44,007 nucleotides of DNA, from the NCBI GenBank assembly GCA_039196715.1, contig JBCCUP010000034.1, forward strand, positions 1-44,007, written 5' to 3'. The notes beneath the pieces are model-generated. The model was not told where the DNA came from. It did not search any database and saw only the letters and a list, made by a program, of their open reading frames with translations. Below are positions 13,781 to 44,007 of the stretch, one piece after another (the first letter of the stretch is position 1; each line of letters starts with the position of its first letter). This DNA comes from Pseudomonadota bacterium. GTDB lineage: Bacteria > Pseudomonadota > Gammaproteobacteria > CALCKW01. Position numbers and translations under genes: made by a program.

Positions 13781-13879
13781 CTACTCGACGCTGAGGAACG
13801 CACTGAAGTCGTTGTCGAAAAACAGCCCGATGACAATGCCGGCAATCAACGCCAAAACCAGTTTCATACGTCGGTCCAT
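13781..13879 (-). CDS. Small single-span membrane protein at the end of the ABC-transporter operon
   Basis: A 32-codon frame beginning with ATG at 13877-13879 and ending TAG at 13781-13783. It starts MDRRMKLVLALIAGIVIGLF and continues FDNDFSAFLSVE: a basic N-terminus, one hydrophobic helix of about 17 residues with a GxxxG pattern, then a short acidic tail. A Shine-Dalgarno-like GAGGA lies about 6 nt upstream of the ATG. It follows the livM homologue by 9 bp in the same direction, so it probably shares the transcript. No family is recognised. Its charge pattern would place the N-terminus in the cytosol and the tail outside. It may be an accessory peptide of the importer, but a chance frame is possible. 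Confidence 0.55.
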   Translation of the reverse strand: MDRRMKLVLALIAGIVIGLFFDNDFSAFLSVE

Positions 13880-13888
13880 CACTGATCC

Positions 13889-14956
13889 TCAACTGCTTTT
13901 TTGCGGCCTTGCAACACCGTGCCCGGATGACCGTCGCGCGGTGAAACGGGCTTTGAGATTGGACCACAGCTTGGCCATGCCGAGCGGCTCGTAGATCATG
14001 AACACAATGATCAGCAGTCCGAATACCACAAGCTCGATCGACGAGATGATGGTGGCATCGATCATCCCGTGGAAGATATCGTTGCCCAGGGTATTGAGAA
14101 CCACCGGAAACAGCAGAATGAAAGCCGCGCCGATAAACGCCCCGTTGATCGTGCCCAGGCCACCCAGGATCACCATGAACAGAATGCGGAAACTGAGCTT
14201 GATGTCGAAGGCCACGGGCTCCATCGACTTCAGATAGGTGAACGCGAAAAGCGCACCGGCCACGCCGCAGAAGAACGCCGAGATCGCAAAGGCCTGCAAC
14301 TTCGTCTTCAACAGCGAGATCCCCATGCTCTCGGCAGCAATGTCCATGTCGCGAACGGCCATCCAGTTTCGACCCGTGCTGCCGCGTGTCATGTTGACTG
14401 CGAGGAATGTCATGATCGTCACCACGACCAGGACCACCAGGTACATCTCGAGCGGAGAAGTGAATTCCGTGCCGAGGATCACGATATCCTGCGCGGTGAT
14501 GATGCCGGACGTGTCGTAGTTCTTGAACCAACCGAACTTGTCGATCATCCAGATGATGAAGAACTGCGATGCCAGGGTCGCCACCATCAGGTAGATGCCA
14601 CGCACTCGCAGCGACGGCAGTCCGAACAGGATGCCGAACGCCGCCGCCACCAGACCCGACAGCATCAGGTTGATCGGAAAACCGAGAAACGGCAACCGCA
14701 GCTCGAGGTTGAACAGCGCAAACGCTCCAGCTGCCATGAAGCCCGCCGCACCGAGGGCGAGTTGTCCCGCGTACCCCATGACGATCTGCTGTCCAATGGC
14801 GGCCAGCGACAGGCACAACCAGGGAATCAGAATGGACGAATACCAGTAGTAGGTCTGCACGATCATCGGTATGACCGCAAAGCCCAGGACCATCAACACC
14901 ACGAGGTTTGACAGATCGCCCCGCGTGTAGCTCATGAAAACGGGTGAAGCTCGCAT
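13889..14956 (-). CDS. livM: Branched-chain amino-acid type ABC transporter permease (LivM family)
   Basis: One of two inner-membrane permeases of a HAAT-family importer. About 355 residues with roughly ten hydrophobic helices, containing the LivM motif region (GQLALGAAGFMAAGAFALFNL, RVRGIYLMVATLASQFF, GRNWMAVRDMDIAAESMG, LGGLGTINGAFIGAAFI). The start is ATG at 14954-14956, because AAGGAG sits 8 nt upstream. A TTG two codons earlier would place that ribosome site only 2 nt away. It follows livH by 12 bp. Substrate cannot be inferred from the permease; this family carries branched-chain amino acids, amides, urea and aromatic acids. Confidence 0.92.
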   Translation of the reverse strand: MRASPVFMSYTRGDLSNLVVLMVLGFAVIPMIVQTYYWYSSILIPWLCLSLAAIGQQIVMGYAGQLALGAAGFMAAGAFALFNLELRLPFLGFPINLMLSGLVAAAFGILFGLPSLRVRGIYLMVATLASQFFIIWMIDKFGWFKNYDTSGIITAQDIVILGTEFTSPLEMYLVVLVVVTIMTFLAVNMTRGSTGRNWMAVRDMDIAAESMGISLLKTKLQAFAISAFFCGVAGALFAFTYLKSMEPVAFDIKLSFRILFMVILGGLGTINGAFIGAAFILLFPVVLNTLGNDIFHGMIDATIISSIELVVFGLLIIVFMIYEPLGMAKLWSNLKARFTARRSSGHGVARPQKSS

Positions 14957-33705: not shown

Positions 33706-34174
33706 GCAGCGCGCGTTCGCGCAACCAGGCACGGGCATCCTCGGCGTCCGACTCGAACCACGCCCGCGCACTGCCAAGCCGAAAGCTGTAACCCCATCGG
33801 TCCATGTCAGCGAGCATGCGCGCCTGGCCAACCCCCTCGAGCTGCGCCGCGACGGTGATCTGCAGGTAGCAGGTGGCGCACTCCTCCAGCGCGCTGCCGC
33901 CGACATTGGTGTGCACGTGTTCACGCCGCGCTGGCGGCAGGCACACCCAGTGACAACCCTCGTGCAGCGCGGATTGGACGGGCGTGTCGGGCCTGACGTG
34001 CAGCGCATCGGCGATCAGCCCGGCCTCAGGCTCGCCCCAGAAGCTGCCCGGGATCGGCGCGCCGACCGGGTGCCATACGACCCGCAGCCCGTGCGACGCA
34101 AACCAGGCCTCGAGCGCGTCGGCATCGATCTCCTGCAGCAGCAGCACGCCCGGGACGCTGTCCGACGCGGTCAT
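33632..34174 (-). CDS. HExxH putative metalloprotein coupled to epmA (EpmC-like)
   Basis: 180-residue protein from ATG 34172-34174, which overlaps the epmA stop (ATGA), so it is translationally coupled to EF-P modification genes. The central motif is SALHEGCHWVCLPPARRE (His71, Glu72, His75). This resembles the SAIHEISHW...ARRE pattern of E. coli EpmC (YfcM), the EF-P hydroxylase. A later acidic helix GSALEECATCYLQI (Glu98/Glu99) could supply another metal ligand. Overall length is close to EpmC, but the rest is only weakly similar. The proposed role, hydroxylation or processing of modified EF-P lysine, rests on this motif and on context. It could equally be an uncharacterised Zn protein. The 3' end overlaps psd by 74 bp. 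Confidence 0.72.
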   Translation of the reverse strand: MTASDSVPGVLLLQEIDADALEAWFASHGLRVVWHPVGAPIPGSFWGEPEAGLIADALHVRPDTPVQSALHEGCHWVCLPPARREHVHTNVGGSALEECATCYLQITVAAQLEGVGQARMLADMDRWGYSFRLGSARAWFESDAEDARAWLRERALLSAENVPATGPCEAVRGARGRRAR

Positions 34175-35127
34175 GCCCGACCCCACGGAAAATTCAGGAC
34201 GTCCTGGATGTGGTCGGCGCCGAGGGCGGCCATGAGCACGCGGTCGACGCCGATCGCCATGCCGGCGCAGGCGGGCAAGCCGTGCCGCATCGCGTCGATG
34301 AGGTGCGCGTCCACCGCGGGCGAGTCACGGCCGCTGGCGAGCCGCTGCGCACGCTCGCGCTCGAACCGCGTGCGCTGCTCGTCCGCATCGAGCAACTCCT
34401 CGAACCCGTTGCCGAGTTCGAGATCGCCGAAGAACACCTCGACGCGCAGAGCGACCGGGCCGGACGCCGACTGCTCGACCCGCGCCAGCGACGCCTGACT
34501 CGCTGGGTACCCGCTGACAACCGTGAGGCGGTCCGGTTCGAAGCGCGGTGCCACCAGGGTGCTGAAGGCGAAGTCGAGCCACGCGTCGACTGCGTCCTCG
34601 GCGAGCCCGATGGGCGCGCCGTGCCCGGCTGCCGCGAGCAGGCCCCGCAACAGCGACAGGTCGGGCGCGAACGGGTCGAAGCCACCGAGCGTGGTGCAGG
34701 CCTCGCGCAAGCTCATCTGCGTGGCTTCGAGCGGCCGCCCCCAGGCCGCGTCGAGCACGGCGAGCGTGTCGGCGGTGATGTCGGCGAGCGTGTGGCCGAG
34801 GCGGTACCACTCCAGCAGCGTGAACTCGGGGTTGTGGCGGGCGCCTTGTTCACCCACGCGGAACACGCGCGCCACTTGGAAACAGTCACCGCAGCCGGCC
34901 GCAAGCAGCCGTTTCATCGCGAATTCGGGCGAGGTGTGCAGATGGCCCGACAGTGCCCCGACGACCGCGGCGCTGTCGATGTTCGGGTCGGTGGTGCCCG
35001 CGCAGCTGAGCGCGGGCGTCTCGACCTCGAGCACCCCGGCCTCGGCGAAGTGGGCACGCACGCGGGCGAGCATGGCCGAACGCGCCCGGCGGGCCGCCTC
35101 GCCCGCAGTGGGTCGCCACGCGCTCAC
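34171..35127 (-). CDS. epmA: EF-P lysine lysyltransferase EpmA (PoxA/GenX)
   Basis: Class II lysyl-tRNA synthetase paralogue lacking the anticodon-binding domain, which attaches (R)-beta-lysine to Lys34 of EF-P. The start was set at GTG 35125-35127 (VSAWRPTAGEAARRARSAML), 7 nt after the efp stop, because it aligns with the EpmA N-terminus; the frame extends into efp but without similarity. It gives 318 residues, the family length. Motifs are GVLEVETPALS, LHTSPEFAMKRLLAAGCGD, RVFRVGEQGARHNPEFTLLEWYR (motif 2), LELGNGFEEL and GMAIGVDRVLM (motif 3). EpmB, the aminomutase that makes beta-lysine, is not in the window. Confidence 0.94.
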   Translation of the reverse strand: MSAWRPTAGEAARRARSAMLARVRAHFAEAGVLEVETPALSCAGTTDPNIDSAAVVGALSGHLHTSPEFAMKRLLAAGCGDCFQVARVFRVGEQGARHNPEFTLLEWYRLGHTLADITADTLAVLDAAWGRPLEATQMSLREACTTLGGFDPFAPDLSLLRGLLAAAGHGAPIGLAEDAVDAWLDFAFSTLVAPRFEPDRLTVVSGYPASQASLARVEQSASGPVALRVEVFFGDLELGNGFEELLDADEQRTRFERERAQRLASGRDSPAVDAHLIDAMRHGLPACAGMAIGVDRVLMAALGADHIQDVLNFPWGRA

Positions 35128-35134
35128 CGACCGA

Positions 35135-35701
35135 TCACTTGACGCGTGAGACGTACTCGCCCGTTCGGGTGTCGCAGCGGACTTTTTCACCCTGCTCGAT
35201 GAACAGCGGCACCTTCACGGTCGCACCGGTTTCGAGGTGTGCGGGCTTGGTGCCGCCGTTGGCGGTGTCGCCGCGCACGCCCGGGTCGGTCTCGACGATT
35301 TCCAGCTCGACGAAGTTCGGCGGCTGCACGTTCAGGGGCGAGCCGTTCCAGAGCGTGACCTGGCACATGTCCTCTTCCTTGAGCCACAGTTTGGCGTCGG
35401 CCACGGCCGAGGCGTCGGCGCCGAGCTGCTCGTAGCTGGAGGTGTCCATGAAGTGCCAGAACTCGCCATCGGTGTAGAGGTATTGCAATTCGACATCGAC
35501 CACGTCGGCGGCCTCCACCGACTCGCCCGACTTGAAGGTCTTTTCGACCACCCGTCCGGTCTTGAGGTTGCGCACGCGCGCGCGGTTGAACGCCTGGCCC
35601 TTGCCGGGCTTGACAAATTCATTCTCGACGATGACGTGCGGGTCGTTGTCGAGCATGATACGCAAGCCGCTGCGAAATTCGTTGGTGCTGTAGTTGGCCA
35701 C
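35135..35701 (-). CDS. efp: Elongation factor P
   Basis: Translation factor that rescues ribosomes stalled at polyproline stretches. 188 residues from GTG 35699-35701 ([17 protein letters not shown]); AGAGG lies 7-8 nt upstream and the frame before it is unrelated. The modification loop is [10 protein letters not shown] with Lys34 in the canonical position, flanked by the residues seen in lysylated (EpmA-type) rather than rhamnosylated (Arg32) EF-P. Domain II/III features [34 protein letters not shown] and C-terminal [11 protein letters not shown] are intact. The downstream epmA supports beta-lysylation. It is divergent from the REC-PAS-EAL-like gene with 149 bp between. Confidence 0.97.
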
Positions 35702-35850
35702 CGCGATGCCTCTACTGGGAGTGGGGAGCAGCCGCGCATTATACGCCACTCTCGTCCGGCGGTCCGCCGACCACAACCCGCTATCGACCCGGCGCGACAA
35801 ACCGGGATAATGTGGTGCGTTGAGAACCCCCGGTCAGCACAGACACTGAG

Positions 35851-37800
35851 ATGAAGCCCGGTATTCGGATGCACCTGTTGATCGTCGACACCGACACCGA
35901 GCGCGCGGCCGAGGTCGAGGGCCACCTGCGCCACCTCGGCAGCGCCGTGCGCACGACCCGCATCGACCACGTCGGCACCCTGCCGACCGACGCCCCGGTC
36001 TTCGACCTCTGTGTCGTTGCACTTGACGGCGGTGCCAGCCTCGCCGCAGCCGACCTGCCCGGGCTCCGTGAGCAGGGACAGCATGGGCCGGTGCTCGCGC
36101 TCGGCCAGCCGGATTTCGAGTGCGCGCTCGGCGCAATCCTCGCGCACGGTTTCGCCGACTGGGTCGGCACCGACGACCCCCTGCACCTGCGTGAAGCCGC
36201 CCGTCGCGAACTCGACGCCGCCAGCGCGCGTCTGCAGACACGGCAACTGCGCGACGCGCTGATCGACAGCGAGCGACGCCTCGAAGTCATCATGCACAAC
36301 ACCCGCGACGCCCACGCGGTGGTGATCGACGGTGTGCACGCCAACGCCAACAACCCCTACTTGCGCGCACTGCAGCTCGACCCGGCCCGGGCGACGGCCA
36401 CGCCGTTCCTCGACTGCGTGGTCGAGGCCGAACGTGACGACGCCCGCGCGCTGTTGCGCGCCTTCGGCCGGGGCGAGGCCCAGGACACGCGACGCGCTCA
36501 GACCTTCGTGCTGCCGGACGGCCGGACGCGCGCACTCGAGACGCGTTACGCCGCCTGGGTCGGCGACGGCGAGCGCGGCGTGCTGGTCAGCCTTGTCCGA
36601 CCCGTGCGTCAGCGCGGCGATGCCCTGACCCGGGGCGCGCCGACGGGGCCCGAGACAACCGGCACCCCGCGACCGATACCGGTTGCGGCAGCCGGTGCTG
36701 CGGCAGCCGATACTGCGGCAGCCGGCGCTGCGGCAGCCGGTGCCACTGGACGCGCGACGGCAACGGCGGACACCGACACCCTCATGCCGGTGGTCGAGCC
36801 TCAGCCCACCGCCGAGGTGCCGTCTCAGCCCGACGCGACGGGCGGGCTCGCCGCCGGGCTCACTGCCGGGCTGGCGACCGAACCGGCGGCGCCGGCAACC
36901 GACCGCCCGACCCGATCGCGCGTGCCGAGCAGCGTCGGCGGACTCGCCGCCGAGCTCGACGACACGCAGCTGCCGGAGGCAACGGCCAGCGCACCGCCCA
37001 CCGACACGCCCGCGGCACCCGCGCCGAGCGCCGCCGACACCGACAGCAAAGACGCCCCGGTTGCGACTGCGGGTGCCCTGCGTGAACGGCTGCGCCAGTC
37101 GATTCGGCAGAACACGCTGGTGGTGCGCACCGCGTCACTGCACACCGTGGGCGCCAGCTCGGTCGAGCACCACCTGAACGTGTCGTTGCTGCCAGGCGAA
37201 CTGCTGCACCCGCTCGCCGACGGTGACGCCGTGCGTCGTGTCGCCACGCGGGTCGGACTCGCAGCGGCCCTCGACCGCTGGCACTTGTTCGTCGCGAGCC
37301 GGCTCGCCGCACGGAAAGCGCCGCGCCTCGGCGCCGCGCGGGTCCGTTTGCACGTCACCCTGTGCGACAGCGCGCTGCAAGACGAAACGCTCGGCGATTG
37401 GCTCAAGCAGCTCTCGGGTCAGTACCCGGGACTGCGTCATACCATCTGGCTACCACTGCCGGCGGCACGGCGTGCACCGGAGGACACGGCGCGCTTTCGC
37501 CTGACGCTCGAAGCCGTTGGCATGCGCCTGTGTCTGACCGACGCGTTTCAGAACGCCGGCGACCTGACCGACCTGCGTGCACTGCGCCCCCACGACGTCT
37601 GTCTGCACAGCGGGGTACTGACCGCGTGGGCGGCCGGGCGCTTCTCGACCGACAACGTGCAGCGCCTGACCGCATTGCTACAGTCACATCAGATCCAGAC
37701 GCTTTGCGCCGAGCCCCACCCCCAGCTCGACGAGGACGCTGCGGCGCGGCTTGGGTTTTGCTTGATCAGCCCGGTAAAGCGAGAAGACACCGTTGAATGA
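35851..37800 (+). CDS. Degenerate REC-PAS-EAL-like signalling protein
   Basis: 649 residues, probably cytosolic, resembling FimX-type c-di-GMP effectors in layout. The receiver-like domain (1-120) has IVDTDTERA, but the phosphoacceptor position reads Ala57 (FDLCVVALDGG), so it cannot be phosphorylated in the normal way. A PAS-like domain lies at about 142-235 (RRLEVIMHNTRDAHAVVIDG). A long Ala/Pro/Thr-rich linker (about 255-405) includes a 15-bp DNA repeat. The C-terminal EAL-like domain (about 408-645) contains IRQNTLVVRTASLHTVG, VRLHVTLCDSALQDETL and VCLHSGVLTAWA but lacks the EAL signature and metal ligands, so phosphodiesterase activity is not expected. It may bind c-di-GMP or partner proteins, perhaps for pili or motility. 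No GGDEF domain is seen. Confidence 0.72.
   Translation: MKPGIRMHLLIVDTDTERAAEVEGHLRHLGSAVRTTRIDHVGTLPTDAPVFDLCVVALDGGASLAAADLPGLREQGQHGPVLALGQPDFECALGAILAHGFADWVGTDDPLHLREAARRELDAASARLQTRQLRDALIDSERRLEVIMHNTRDAHAVVIDGVHANANNPYLRALQLDPARATATPFLDCVVEAERDDARALLRAFGRGEAQDTRRAQTFVLPDGRTRALETRYAAWVGDGERGVLVSLVRPVRQRGDALTRGAPTGPETTGTPRPIPVAAAGAAAADTAAAGAAAAGATGRATATADTDTLMPVVEPQPTAEVPSQPDATGGLAAGLTAGLATEPAAPATDRPTRSRVPSSVGGLAAELDDTQLPEATASAPPTDTPAAPAPSAADTDSKDAPVATAGALRERLRQSIRQNTLVVRTASLHTVGASSVEHHLNVSLLPGELLHPLADGDAVRRVATRVGLAAALDRWHLFVASRLAARKAPRLGAARVRLHVTLCDSALQDETLGDWLKQLSGQYPGLRHTIWLPLPAARRAPEDTARFRLTLEAVGMRLCLTDAFQNAGDLTDLRALRPHDVCLHSGVLTAWAAGRFSTDNVQRLTALLQSHQIQTLCAEPHPQLDEDAAARLGFCLISPVKREDTVE
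36685..36744. repeat. Four tandem 15-bp units in the linker of the REC-PAS-EAL-like gene
   Basis: Four successive copies of a GCGGCAGCCGGTGCT-like unit (starts 36685, 36700, 36715, 36730), each differing by one to three bases. They encode five-residue units AAAGA/AAADT. The repeat is in frame and lies in the disordered linker, so unit-number variation would change linker length without breaking the protein. Confidence 0.85.
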
Positions 37801-37828: not shown

Positions 37829-37857
37829 TTGACAAAGATCTGACGTTGACATAGCTT
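37829..37857 (+). promoter_or_regulatory. Weak candidate promoter upstream of the Cas6-RT gene
   Basis: TTGACA at 37829-37834 followed 17 bp later by TAGCTT (37852-37857), with a second TTGACA at 37846-37851 and an AT-rich tract to 37890. The -35 boxes are perfect but the -10 is poor. The 190-bp region 37801-37990 contains no gene and no CRISPR repeat. Confidence 0.3.
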
Positions 37858-37990
37858 CATTCTTGATCAGTCATTCTAAAATTAACAATGACCCGAGCTG
37901 ATCGAGGTAGGCACATGCAGCCACCACACCACCAACGGGCCCGGATTGACCCAGGTGCGGCGCGGTTGCCTCCACACACAAGGGACTCTC

Positions 37991-39670
37991 ATGGACGATG
38001 ATTTCCGGACCGACGAACCCGCGTTGCCGATAGCGCAGCTCCTGCCCGTGCGTGCTGTGACGATCACGCTGCAGTTCACAGGCGCTTCACAACCCAAGTT
38101 CTTTCACCAGGCGAGCCTCGCCGCCTTTGTCCGCCACCTGCTGCGCGAACCGCCCGAGTTCGACACGCTGCTTCGCATCCACTGCCTCGAAACCGGCCGT
38201 ACACACTTTGCACCGGGCGACCACTACAGCTTCTCCGTGATCTCCCTGGCCGGCGGCGAACAGTTGCTGGACGAGCTCGTGCAGAGCCTGCAAATGCTGC
38301 CCGACTCGGCCCTTCGCCGCGAACGCCGCATCTGCTTTCGCGACAACCTCCGCTTCGTCGCGTTGCGTGACGAACTCACGGGCCAGCCGGTCGATTCGGT
38401 GCAGGCTCTGTCCACGCTGGACGCGGACGGCCTGACGGCGATGGCCGCGCAGCTCGCCGAACAGAACGCCGACGCACTGCAAGTGCGCTTTGACGCACCG
38501 GTGCGCTTGCTCAAGGACAAGGGCAAGCGCCTGAACGCGCGCGGCGAATCCCGCTACTGCCACACCGCCGAAGACCTCGACCCGGCGCTCTTGATCAACC
38601 GCGTGCGCGACAGTTTCGCCGATTTGCTGCGCCGCCGCGGCGCGAGCTACCTGCCGCCCCGCACCGCTGCGCCGGAAGTGGGCTACGGCCAGACCGACGT
38701 GTTCTGGCTCGACGGCATCTACAGCGACCCGGGCTCGCGCGACCGCGGCATGGGCGGGCTGTGCGGCCAACTGACGCTCAAGCAAACCGAACAGCTGTCG
38801 TCCGACTGGTGGCAGTTGCTGGCCCTCGGTCAGTTCACCGGCATCGGCCAACGCACCTCGCAGGGCTGGGGCCGCTTCCGGCTCGGCCCGCCTGGCGCGG
38901 ACTGGGCCGAGCGCGACGACACAGTGCAGAGCACCAGCCCGATTCGCCAGATCGTCGGCGACAAGAACCTGCTGACGGCCTACTACCACTGCCTGTTCGA
39001 ACAGGAACAGCTCGGACGGGCGGGCGACTTGTCACCGGCCTTGCCCGAAGACCCCCTGCCCGACCCGGTTGCGACCTTGCGCGAGCACTTCGCAGCGCTT
39101 GAGGGCCTGCGCTACACGGTGCCCGCACCGCAGCAGTTCACCGCGCGCGACCAGGCCGCCGTTGCAGTGCCACCGCTGATCGACCGCGTGATGCAACAGG
39201 CGACCCTGCAGGTCCTGCTGCCCGCGCTGGTGCAACTGCAGGCAACCGGCCGCGCCCAGCTCAACAGCCCCGACCTCGCGCAGTCGTTCATCGATTCACA
39301 GGCCCTGCACCGCAGACTCGAGGCCAGCGACGCCTTCGGTGCGGCACGCAAGCACGCCGCCACCTGCGACGCGCGCACCGTGGCTGCCCACCTCAGTGCC
39401 GTGTTCGGCGAAGACCCGATCATGCGCTACGTCGAATCGTGGCTCTCGGCCGATGGCGACAACCCGGGCGTCACGCTGGGATCGCCTCTGGTGTCCTTGA
39501 TCGCCCAACCCATTGGCCTCGAGCCTGTGGCCGTCGACGCCTGGCGGGAACTCGCGAACAGCTCCGGACGTCAGGGCGGCCACCACAAACCGAGCAAGGG
39601 CGTGCGCATCCGCTCGCGGTCGCCCTACCGGCACTACAACACCAACGGCCGCTCGAAGACGGGCACCTAG
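37991..39670 (+). CDS. Cas6 endoribonuclease fused to a degenerate, truncated reverse transcriptase
   Basis: 559 residues from ATG 37991 (AAGGGA 6 nt upstream). Residues about 20-300 are a Cas6 (PF10040-type) CRISPR RNA endonuclease. A candidate catalytic His39 lies in FFHQASLAAFVRHLL, and the diagnostic C-terminal glycine-rich loop is LGQFTGIGQRTSQGWGRFRL (about 279-298). Residues about 320-515 match the early part of the RT in Cas6-RT-Cas1 fusions: RYTVPAPQQF, VPPLIDRVMQQATLQVLLPA (393-412), GEDPIMRYVESWLSA, and GVTLGSPLVSLIAQPIG, the counterpart of the GxPQGxPLSPLLANL block. The motif A FFD is lost (CDARTVAAHL), and the protein ends before the YxDD motif, thumb and Cas1. The tail 524-559 is very basic. 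No cas1, cas2, cas10 or array is visible. Confidence 0.8.
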   Translation: MDDDFRTDEPALPIAQLLPVRAVTITLQFTGASQPKFFHQASLAAFVRHLLREPPEFDTLLRIHCLETGRTHFAPGDHYSFSVISLAGGEQLLDELVQSLQMLPDSALRRERRICFRDNLRFVALRDELTGQPVDSVQALSTLDADGLTAMAAQLAEQNADALQVRFDAPVRLLKDKGKRLNARGESRYCHTAEDLDPALLINRVRDSFADLLRRRGASYLPPRTAAPEVGYGQTDVFWLDGIYSDPGSRDRGMGGLCGQLTLKQTEQLSSDWWQLLALGQFTGIGQRTSQGWGRFRLGPPGADWAERDDTVQSTSPIRQIVGDKNLLTAYYHCLFEQEQLGRAGDLSPALPEDPLPDPVATLREHFAALEGLRYTVPAPQQFTARDQAAVAVPPLIDRVMQQATLQVLLPALVQLQATGRAQLNSPDLAQSFIDSQALHRRLEASDAFGAARKHAATCDARTVAAHLSAVFGEDPIMRYVESWLSADGDNPGVTLGSPLVSLIAQPIGLEPVAVDAWRELANSSGRQGGHHKPSKGVRIRSRSPYRHYNTNGRSKTGT

Positions 39671-40522: not shown

Positions 40523-41506
40523 ATGCACGCCATCTTCTGCGACCAACACGGCCCGATCGACACCCTGCGCCTCGGTGAGGCCGACACACCCACACCGGGC
40601 GAACACGAGGCGCTGATCCGTGTGCGGGCGGCCGGGGTGAATTTTCCGGACGGCTTGCTGGTGCAGGGCCTGTACCAGGCCAAGCCGCCGTTGCCCTTCA
40701 TCCCGGGCATGGAGTTCTGCGGCGACGTTGTCGCCGTTGGCGACAGTGTGTCAACCGTCTCGGTCGGCCAGCGCGTGATGGGCAGCAGCGCGGGCTTCGG
40801 CGCCTTCGCCGAGAGCCTCTGCGCCGACGCGCGCGCGCTGGTGCCGGTGCCGGAGGCCATCCCCGACGCCGAGGCCGCGAACCTCCTGTGTGCCCACGGC
40901 ACAGCGCACCACGCCCTGAACCAGCGTGCGGCGCTCGCGTCGGGCGAACACGTGCTGGTGCTCGGTGCGGCGGGTGGTACCGGGCTTGCAGCTGTGCAGG
41001 TCGCCAAGGCGATGGGCGCGACCGTGATCGCAGCCGCCTCGACCGAGGACAAACTCGCGCTGGCACGCGAGAACGGCGCCGACCACACGGTCAACTACGC
41101 AACCGACGACCTCAAGACGGCCGTGCGCGCGCTCACCGACAACCGCGGTGTGGATGTGGTGTACGACCCGGTGGGTGGCGACGCCTTCGACACCAGCTGC
41201 CGCCTCATGGCACGCGGTGGACGGTTGCTGGTGATTGGCTTTGCCAGCGGGCGCATCCCGCAGTTTCCGGTGAACCTCGCGCTGGTCAAGGAGTTCAGCG
41301 TGGTCGGTGCGTTCTGGGGCAGCTTCGTGCGGCACGAGCCTGCGCTCGCCGCCGACAACTTCGCCGAACTGATCGGTTGGTACCTCCAAGGCGCCGTCAA
41401 GGTGCAGGTGGAGAAGACGTACCCGCTCGATCAGACAGTGGCCGCACTCGAGCACGTGATGGGCCGGCAGGTGCGCGGCAAAGTCGCGATCGTGCCGGGC
41501 GGCTGA
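40523..41506 (+). CDS. Quinone-oxidoreductase-like NADPH-dependent MDR enzyme
   Basis: 327 residues from ATG 40523 (MHAIFCDQHGPIDTLRLGEA); the frame upstream has no similarity. Zinc-free medium-chain dehydrogenase/reductase of the QOR type: GroES-like domain with VNFPDGLLVQGLYQAKPPLPFIPGMEFCGDVV, and a cofactor domain with the AAxGGxG motif LVLGAAGGTGLAAVQVAKAMGA, then GVDVVYDPVGGDAF and GRLLVIGFASGRIP. No zinc-binding cysteine set is visible. NADPH-dependent reduction of a quinone or enone is the family activity; the substrate is unknown. It is divergent from the DinB-like gene and convergent with the AEC transporter. Confidence 0.9.
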   Translation: MHAIFCDQHGPIDTLRLGEADTPTPGEHEALIRVRAAGVNFPDGLLVQGLYQAKPPLPFIPGMEFCGDVVAVGDSVSTVSVGQRVMGSSAGFGAFAESLCADARALVPVPEAIPDAEAANLLCAHGTAHHALNQRAALASGEHVLVLGAAGGTGLAAVQVAKAMGATVIAAASTEDKLALARENGADHTVNYATDDLKTAVRALTDNRGVDVVYDPVGGDAFDTSCRLMARGGRLLVIGFASGRIPQFPVNLALVKEFSVVGAFWGSFVRHEPALAADNFAELIGWYLQGAVKVQVEKTYPLDQTVAALEHVMGRQVRGKVAIVPGG

Positions 41507-43655: not shown

Positions 43656-44007
43656 CAGCCTGCGTTGCCGGTTGATCGGAGCCGGGGGGTTCTGGAGGTA
43701 GCTTGATTGGACTTCGAGATTGTGAGGACCCGGAAGGATGGATTCGCAAACGCTAAGGCGTTTGCTCACCCTTCGGGCGGCCTGCGGCCGTCTCAACTGG
43801 CGTTGCCAGTTGATCGAACCTGAGGAGGTTCTGGACCGACCGGGTGTGCCATTGGAAAAGCCACCCGTTGGGTGGCGGGTCGTCTTGTCTGGTGCACCCT
43901 CTGCCCGGAAGAATAGATTTGCAAACGCTAGGGCGTTTGCTCACCCTGCGGGCGGCCTTTGGCCGTCTCAACTGGCGTTGCCAGTTGATCGAACCTGAGG
44001 AGGTTCG
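43656..44007. repeat. Hairpin-rich tandem repeat, period 175 bp, continuing off the right edge
   Basis: Two copies of a block of about 95 bp occur at 43741-43837 and 43916-44007 (offset exactly 175 bp, about five differences). A diverged partial copy lies at about 43661-43700. Each block holds four successive perfect hairpins. In the first copy they are GCAAACGC/GCGTTTGC (43746-43765), CGGCC/GGCCG (43778-43790), CAACTGGC/GCCAGTTG (43794-43812) and GAACCT/AGGTTC (43816-43831). The spacer adds CCACCC/GGGTGG (43861-43875). Differences between copies fall in loops or between hairpins, while stems are unchanged. No protein-coding gene is supported here. It may be a REP/MITE-like element, a structured RNA or an attachment-type array. 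Confidence 0.8.

Follow-up and report, generated by a model that had tools for sequence, protein, structure and literature searches.

What does a Cas6 endoribonuclease do at a locus with no clustered regularly interspaced short palindromic repeats (CRISPR) array and no Cas partner? The question is raised by a 44,007-nucleotide stretch of a gammaproteobacterial genome (Pseudomonadota bacterium, lineage CALCKW01; assembly GCA_039196715.1, contig JBCCUP010000034.1), analysed as a whole and hereafter called the window, in which a single uninterrupted plus-strand frame at 37991-39670 (559 amino acids, ATG at 37991, TAG stop at 39668-39670) joins a Cas6 domain to the remains of a reverse transcriptase (RT). 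Descent of this protein from a Cas6-RT(-Cas1) ancestor is confirmed, and we propose that it probably represents a Cas6-RT from a type III Cas6-RT-Cas1 fusion that was exapted in the ancestor of the genus to a CRISPR-independent RNA function, its activity being predicted. Exaptation is favoured over a relic because four orthologues share the same truncation, the chromosomal position is conserved, the ratio of nonsynonymous to synonymous substitution rates (dN/dS) is about 0.11 and the Cas6 active-site residues are kept. The parts of the gene are as follows.

37991-39670, plus strand: orphan Cas6-RT protein, 559 residues (open frame; PDB phmmer matches; orthologues at L001, L002 and L003)
37991-38890, plus strand: Cas6 endoribonuclease domain, residues 1-300, RAMP-type fold, glycine-rich loop at residues 280-294 (profiles, structure match)
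38105-38107, plus strand: His39, candidate catalytic histidine, invariant in 10/10 aligned Cas6-RT proteins
38132-38134, plus strand: Arg48, whose aligned counterpart in the Thiomicrospira Cas6-RT-Cas1 is inferred to be the active-site arginine R37 (PMC8102632), likewise invariant in 10/10
38933-39520, plus strand: remnant of RT fingers and partial palm, residues 315-510, with the RT0/1-like DRVMQQAxxQVLxPAL (phmmer, alignment, predicted fold)
39341-39343, plus strand: site of the catalytic Asp of motif A, occupied by Ala451 in this protein and by Ala/Ser in 4/4 orthologues (alignment)
39467-39499, plus strand: degenerate RT motif B, GVTLGSPLVSL versus GLPQGSPLSPL (alignment)
39521-39667, plus strand: basic C-terminal tail of 49 residues, probably disordered, in place of catalytic palm and Cas1 (composition; predicted local distance difference test, pLDDT, below 40)

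The protein is a member of the Cas6 endoribonuclease fold family. Profile matches range from an E-value of 1.5e-12 with the PADLOC Cas6 model, which calls Cas6 in all four orthologues, through 26.2 bits with Pfam PF10040, barely above the cut-off of 25, to a score below cut-off with the NCBIfam cas6 model. A phmmer search of the PDB matched the Cas6 structure from Marinomonas MMB-1 (6dd5) at E 1.4e-37, and the predicted fold superimposes on 6dd5_A with Z 31.4 over 275 residues. In the alignment of ten Cas6-RT proteins, His39, Arg48, Gln281 and the glycines 286, 292 and 294 are unchanged throughout. The counterpart of Arg48 would be the only Thiomicrospira arginine able to be R37, given a three-residue tag in the deposited chain, and the active-site mutation R37A lowers processing by the Thiomicrospira Cas6-RT-Cas1 to 12% (PMC8102632). 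As judged from the alignment, the putative Cas6 active-site residues are thus retained in the orphan proteins. The complete Cas6 module with His39 and a glycine-rich loop described in a first-pass annotation of this DNA is thereby borne out, as is the relation it drew to type III Cas6-RT-Cas1 fusions, by homology and fold to the MMB-1 and Thiomicrospira proteins.

The region downstream of Cas6 did not reach the Pfam RVT_1 threshold; nevertheless, the RT region is real, because the predicted fold matches both Cas6-RT-Cas1 and group II intron RTs. The model, built on an alignment of ten sequences (mean pLDDT 73, predicted template modelling score 0.75), superimposes over residues 10-514 on the Thiomicrospira Cas6-RT-Cas1 chain 7kft_C (Z 24.6, 431 residues), and its residues 315-528 are matched by the group II intron RTs 7k9y and 5hhl at Z about 14; chain 7kft_D was found by phmmer at E 8e-30, aligned across residues 21-488. 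Of the Cas6-RT-Cas1 module, homology to the RT fingers is thus present, while the catalytic aspartates are absent and Cas1 is neither fused nor adjacent. Aligned with relatives from other genomes, all four orthologues have Ala or Ser where the catalytic motif-A Asp would stand, and they lack the xADD block together with everything beyond it. From these lost residues the RT should be catalytically dead. The tail that follows holds 10 Lys/Arg and 3 His versus 3 Asp/Glu. The RT-like blocks in frame with Cas6, the altered motif A, the lack of YxDD and the basic tail had all been read from the sequence at first pass, and each of these readings stands. Truncation by a frameshift or sequencing error was rejected, since the orthologues end at the same place and no match to an RT palm or Cas1 lies downstream; a tblastn query with both gave no significant match to the window, to any of the three orthologous loci or to the sampled part of the window's own genome.

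The genus, and with it the whole order, is represented here by four genomes, and an orthologue with the same ending occurs in each of them, at 49-77% identity (G000, the window's own, and G001, G002 and G003, carrying the orthologous loci L001, L002 and L003; three are recorded as Granulosicoccaceae metagenome-assembled genomes, MAGs). An apparent TGA in the G003 orthologue reflects a match extending beyond the gene's own stop. The truncation is old, because the four orphan proteins group together in the tree as a single clade with 100/100 support, set on a long stem. Between G000 and G001 the gene has a dN/dS of 0.11, tighter than seven of eight neighbours (0.14-0.28; EF-P, the elongation factor P gene, at 0.05), and the RT remnant has values of 0.08-0.19 for the closer pairs with finite dS. 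The gene is therefore under strong purifying selection and is not a fresh relic. The label of an orphan holds insofar as no CRISPR partners were found, but the gene is not the lone oddity the label implies, being conserved across the genus.

We propose the following mechanism for the exapted protein. The Cas6 groove would recognise a specific RNA, a stem-loop or repeat-like sequence, and an active, metal-independent endoribonuclease would cleave it via His39 and Arg48, after which the protein would probably remain on the cleaved RNA. An additional RNA-binding platform may be provided by the basic tail together with the dead RT fingers. Most likely, the protein would act on a single host transcript or small RNA, or on a few of them, and so be an RNA maturase or regulator. 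In its most specific form, in which a CRISPR RNA (crRNA) maturation enzyme with a fused dead CRISPR RT is now a core host RNA-processing factor of the genus, cutting host RNA with no array, effector or adaptation module, we consider this proposal somewhat probable. A rather unlikely alternative is that cleavage is irrelevant or lost and the protein acts purely by binding or scaffolding RNA, e.g. as an RNA chaperone or translational regulator. The added tail and the retained fingers would suit such a role, and several Cas6 homologues hold RNA tightly after cleavage; however, invariance of His39 and Arg48 in the four orthologues as well as in CRISPR relatives would be unexpected if catalysis were dispensable.

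The protein can be compared with known CRISPR systems. The Cas6-RT-Cas1 proteins of type III systems (Marinomonas MMB-1, 6dd5; Thiomicrospira, 7kft/7kfu) resemble the orphan in the arrangement of Cas6, linker and RT fingers, in fold and in the invariant His and Arg. Unlike them, the orphan lacks the motif-A Asp, the motif-B signature, the xADD palm and Cas1, has no adjoining array, type III effector or Cas1/Cas2 partner, and is vertically inherited with its chromosomal neighbours. Stand-alone Cas6 enzymes (Cas6b, Cas6e, Cas6f) are likewise RAMP-fold endoribonucleases, but those work in crRNA maturation, next to arrays and Cascade or Csm/Cmr, whereas the orphan carries an RT remnant and no such partners were found. 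Among the CRISPR-associated RTs collected by Toro et al. 2017, footnote c to Table 1 marks a single fusion of Cas6 and RT in which no Cas1 domain is recognisable (PMC5541045). That record is a partial precedent, likened here by description only, and the text does not speak of lost RT catalysis, of a conserved group of orthologues or of independence from CRISPR (PMC5541045). In genome G305, the stretch L009 646-2976 holds a separately truncated Cas6-RT of 495 residues, composed of Cas6 and RT fingers without Cas1 and reaching past motif A, together with a neighbouring array of 7 repeats and a TIGR03986 type III RAMP gene; unlike the orphan, this Cas6-RT keeps the motif-A Asp, ends before motif B and falls outside the orphan clade in the tree. 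Judging by this case, a Cas6-RT may be truncated and still belong to a CRISPR system. No equivalent of the orphan gene turned up in the papers searched for orphan or exapted Cas6.

The G305 locus and the fully conserved Cas6 active site are what speak for continued trans-acting processing of CRISPR RNA, with an array at another genomic site or on plasmids and a remote or intermittently acquired class 1 effector, an explanation which we regard as unlikely. No type III RAMP (PF03787) and no Cmr2-type Cas10 (TIGR02577, the single model standing for all Cas10) was detected in the four genus genomes, and no Cas1 was found in three of them. The Cas loci that were found, a type II Cas9/Cas1 locus in G003 and, in G002, an I-E locus equipped with a Cas6e, have no need of the orphan protein. 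With a repeat-spacing script that recovered the 7-repeat array of L009 as a positive control, no array was detected in the window, nor across the 2.47 Mb scanned of its own 4.95-Mb genome. Vertical synteny and tight genus-wide constraint are, in addition, unlike a CRISPR accessory gene. Hence the first-pass proposal of action on a remote array is disfavoured, while its observation that the locus lacks Cas1, effectors and an array is upheld by the tblastn, profile and array searches.

The chromosomal surroundings bear on a further explanation, a role in defence. Genes for EF-P, an EpmA-like protein, a methyltransferase, MipA, a short-chain dehydrogenase/reductase and an EAL-domain protein recur at L001 and L003, and alcohol dehydrogenase and transporter genes at L001 and L002; as L002 begins inside the Cas6-RT gene, the upstream comparison concerns L001 and L003 only. 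The main conserved neighbours in the window are:

34171-35190: class II tRNA-synthetase-like (epmA-like) gene, next to efp
35135-35800, minus strand: efp
35851-37800, plus strand: PAS/EAL-domain regulatory gene, the upstream neighbour, conserved in the window, L001 and L003, with no functional link established
40523-41506, plus strand: zinc-type alcohol/quinone dehydrogenase, the downstream neighbour, conserved in L001 and L002

A role in non-CRISPR defence, by direct cutting of invader RNA, would be in agreement with the CRISPR ancestry and the RNase fold, but is very unlikely: efp, the epmA-like gene and metabolic genes do not constitute a defence island, the gene is stably maintained and slow to evolve, neither patchy nor fast-changing, and no homologues were found in phage or viral collections. 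The two plasmid matches are both annotated Cas1 genes of the Cas6-RT-Cas1 type (Vibrio aerogenes and Thiodictyon). Finally, a decaying, functionless remnant of an RT-CRISPR locus, although the RT active site and Cas1 have been lost and broken Cas6 remnants of this family exist elsewhere in the phylum, is highly improbable given four intact frames with dN/dS near 0.11 and conservation of the active site, of start and end, and of a promoter-like sequence; decay looks different, because the frames in G484 and G504 are broken by several stops. Of the two fates considered at first pass, retention or exaptation is accordingly strongly favoured, and a last relic of an RT-CRISPR locus is disfavoured on the same evidence.

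Several points weigh against exaptation to a CRISPR-independent role. All four genus genomes are incomplete assemblies, CRISPR loci assemble badly in MAGs, and the array scan covered about half of G000. At the distance of G003 dS is saturated, and the C-terminal tail varies, with 25-27% identity to G003. Neither an RNA substrate nor a cognate repeat was found, and the host hairpin RNAs suggested at first pass are candidates; the 5' leader of the gene has no unusual fold (z = +0.8), and an autoregulatory hairpin there was rejected on this ground. An Rfam scan returned tRNAs only.

Putative signals for expression precede the gene, and the first-pass reading of a frame open over 559 codons with a ribosome site agrees with them:

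37829-37857, plus strand: probable promoter, TTGACA-17 bp-TAGCTT, read from sequence, with identical hexamers and spacing at the orthologous locus L001
37980-37985, plus strand: ribosome-binding-like AAGGGA, 5' of the ATG at 37991, also present in L001

Both in the window (37829-37885) and upstream of the gene at L001, the promoter-like element is followed by a conserved TTGATCnnTCnTTCTAnAATTAA, possibly the operator of a regulator. Further repeats were noted in the same genomes. Two other repeat matches in G000 are not CRISPR: L135 is an element repeated locally at irregular intervals, and L150 is a tandem repeat of coding type with a 45-bp unit; the cluster of degenerate interspersed repeats at L135 (G000:C93, 14670-15550) contains TTCAACGGTGGCTGTC. 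At the end of the window, 43729-44006 holds two 103-nt direct repeats, 93% identical and each built of several short palindromes, with related fragments at L001 (about 13830-13987) and a partial match in L036. A second genomic RT as partner of the orphan protein was rejected, as the sole RVT_1 match is a probable diversity-generating retroelement (DGR) RT on another contig. This 356-residue RT (G000:C1:194387-194920; L173, 1243-2313, minus strand) lies beside formylglycine-generating-enzyme-like genes and appears DGR-like by eye from the open reading frames.

In conclusion, our data suggest that a CRISPR enzyme has been recruited to another RNA job in a genus of uncultured bacteria, where it is carried as an ordinary, well-conserved chromosomal gene. 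The parts lost are those of the "RNA-memory" protein, namely Cas1 and the catalytic half of the RT, and the RNA-cutting half is kept. Although new uses for CRISPR parts are a frequent topic, a conserved, CRISPR-free Cas6 seems rarely documented, and the present gene offers a concrete case that is vertically inherited, strongly constrained and of defined architecture, with RT fingers retained and catalysis lost. The question of what else Cas6 can cut thereby becomes directly testable, and the gene may provide a Cas6 that targets RNA with a novel specificity.
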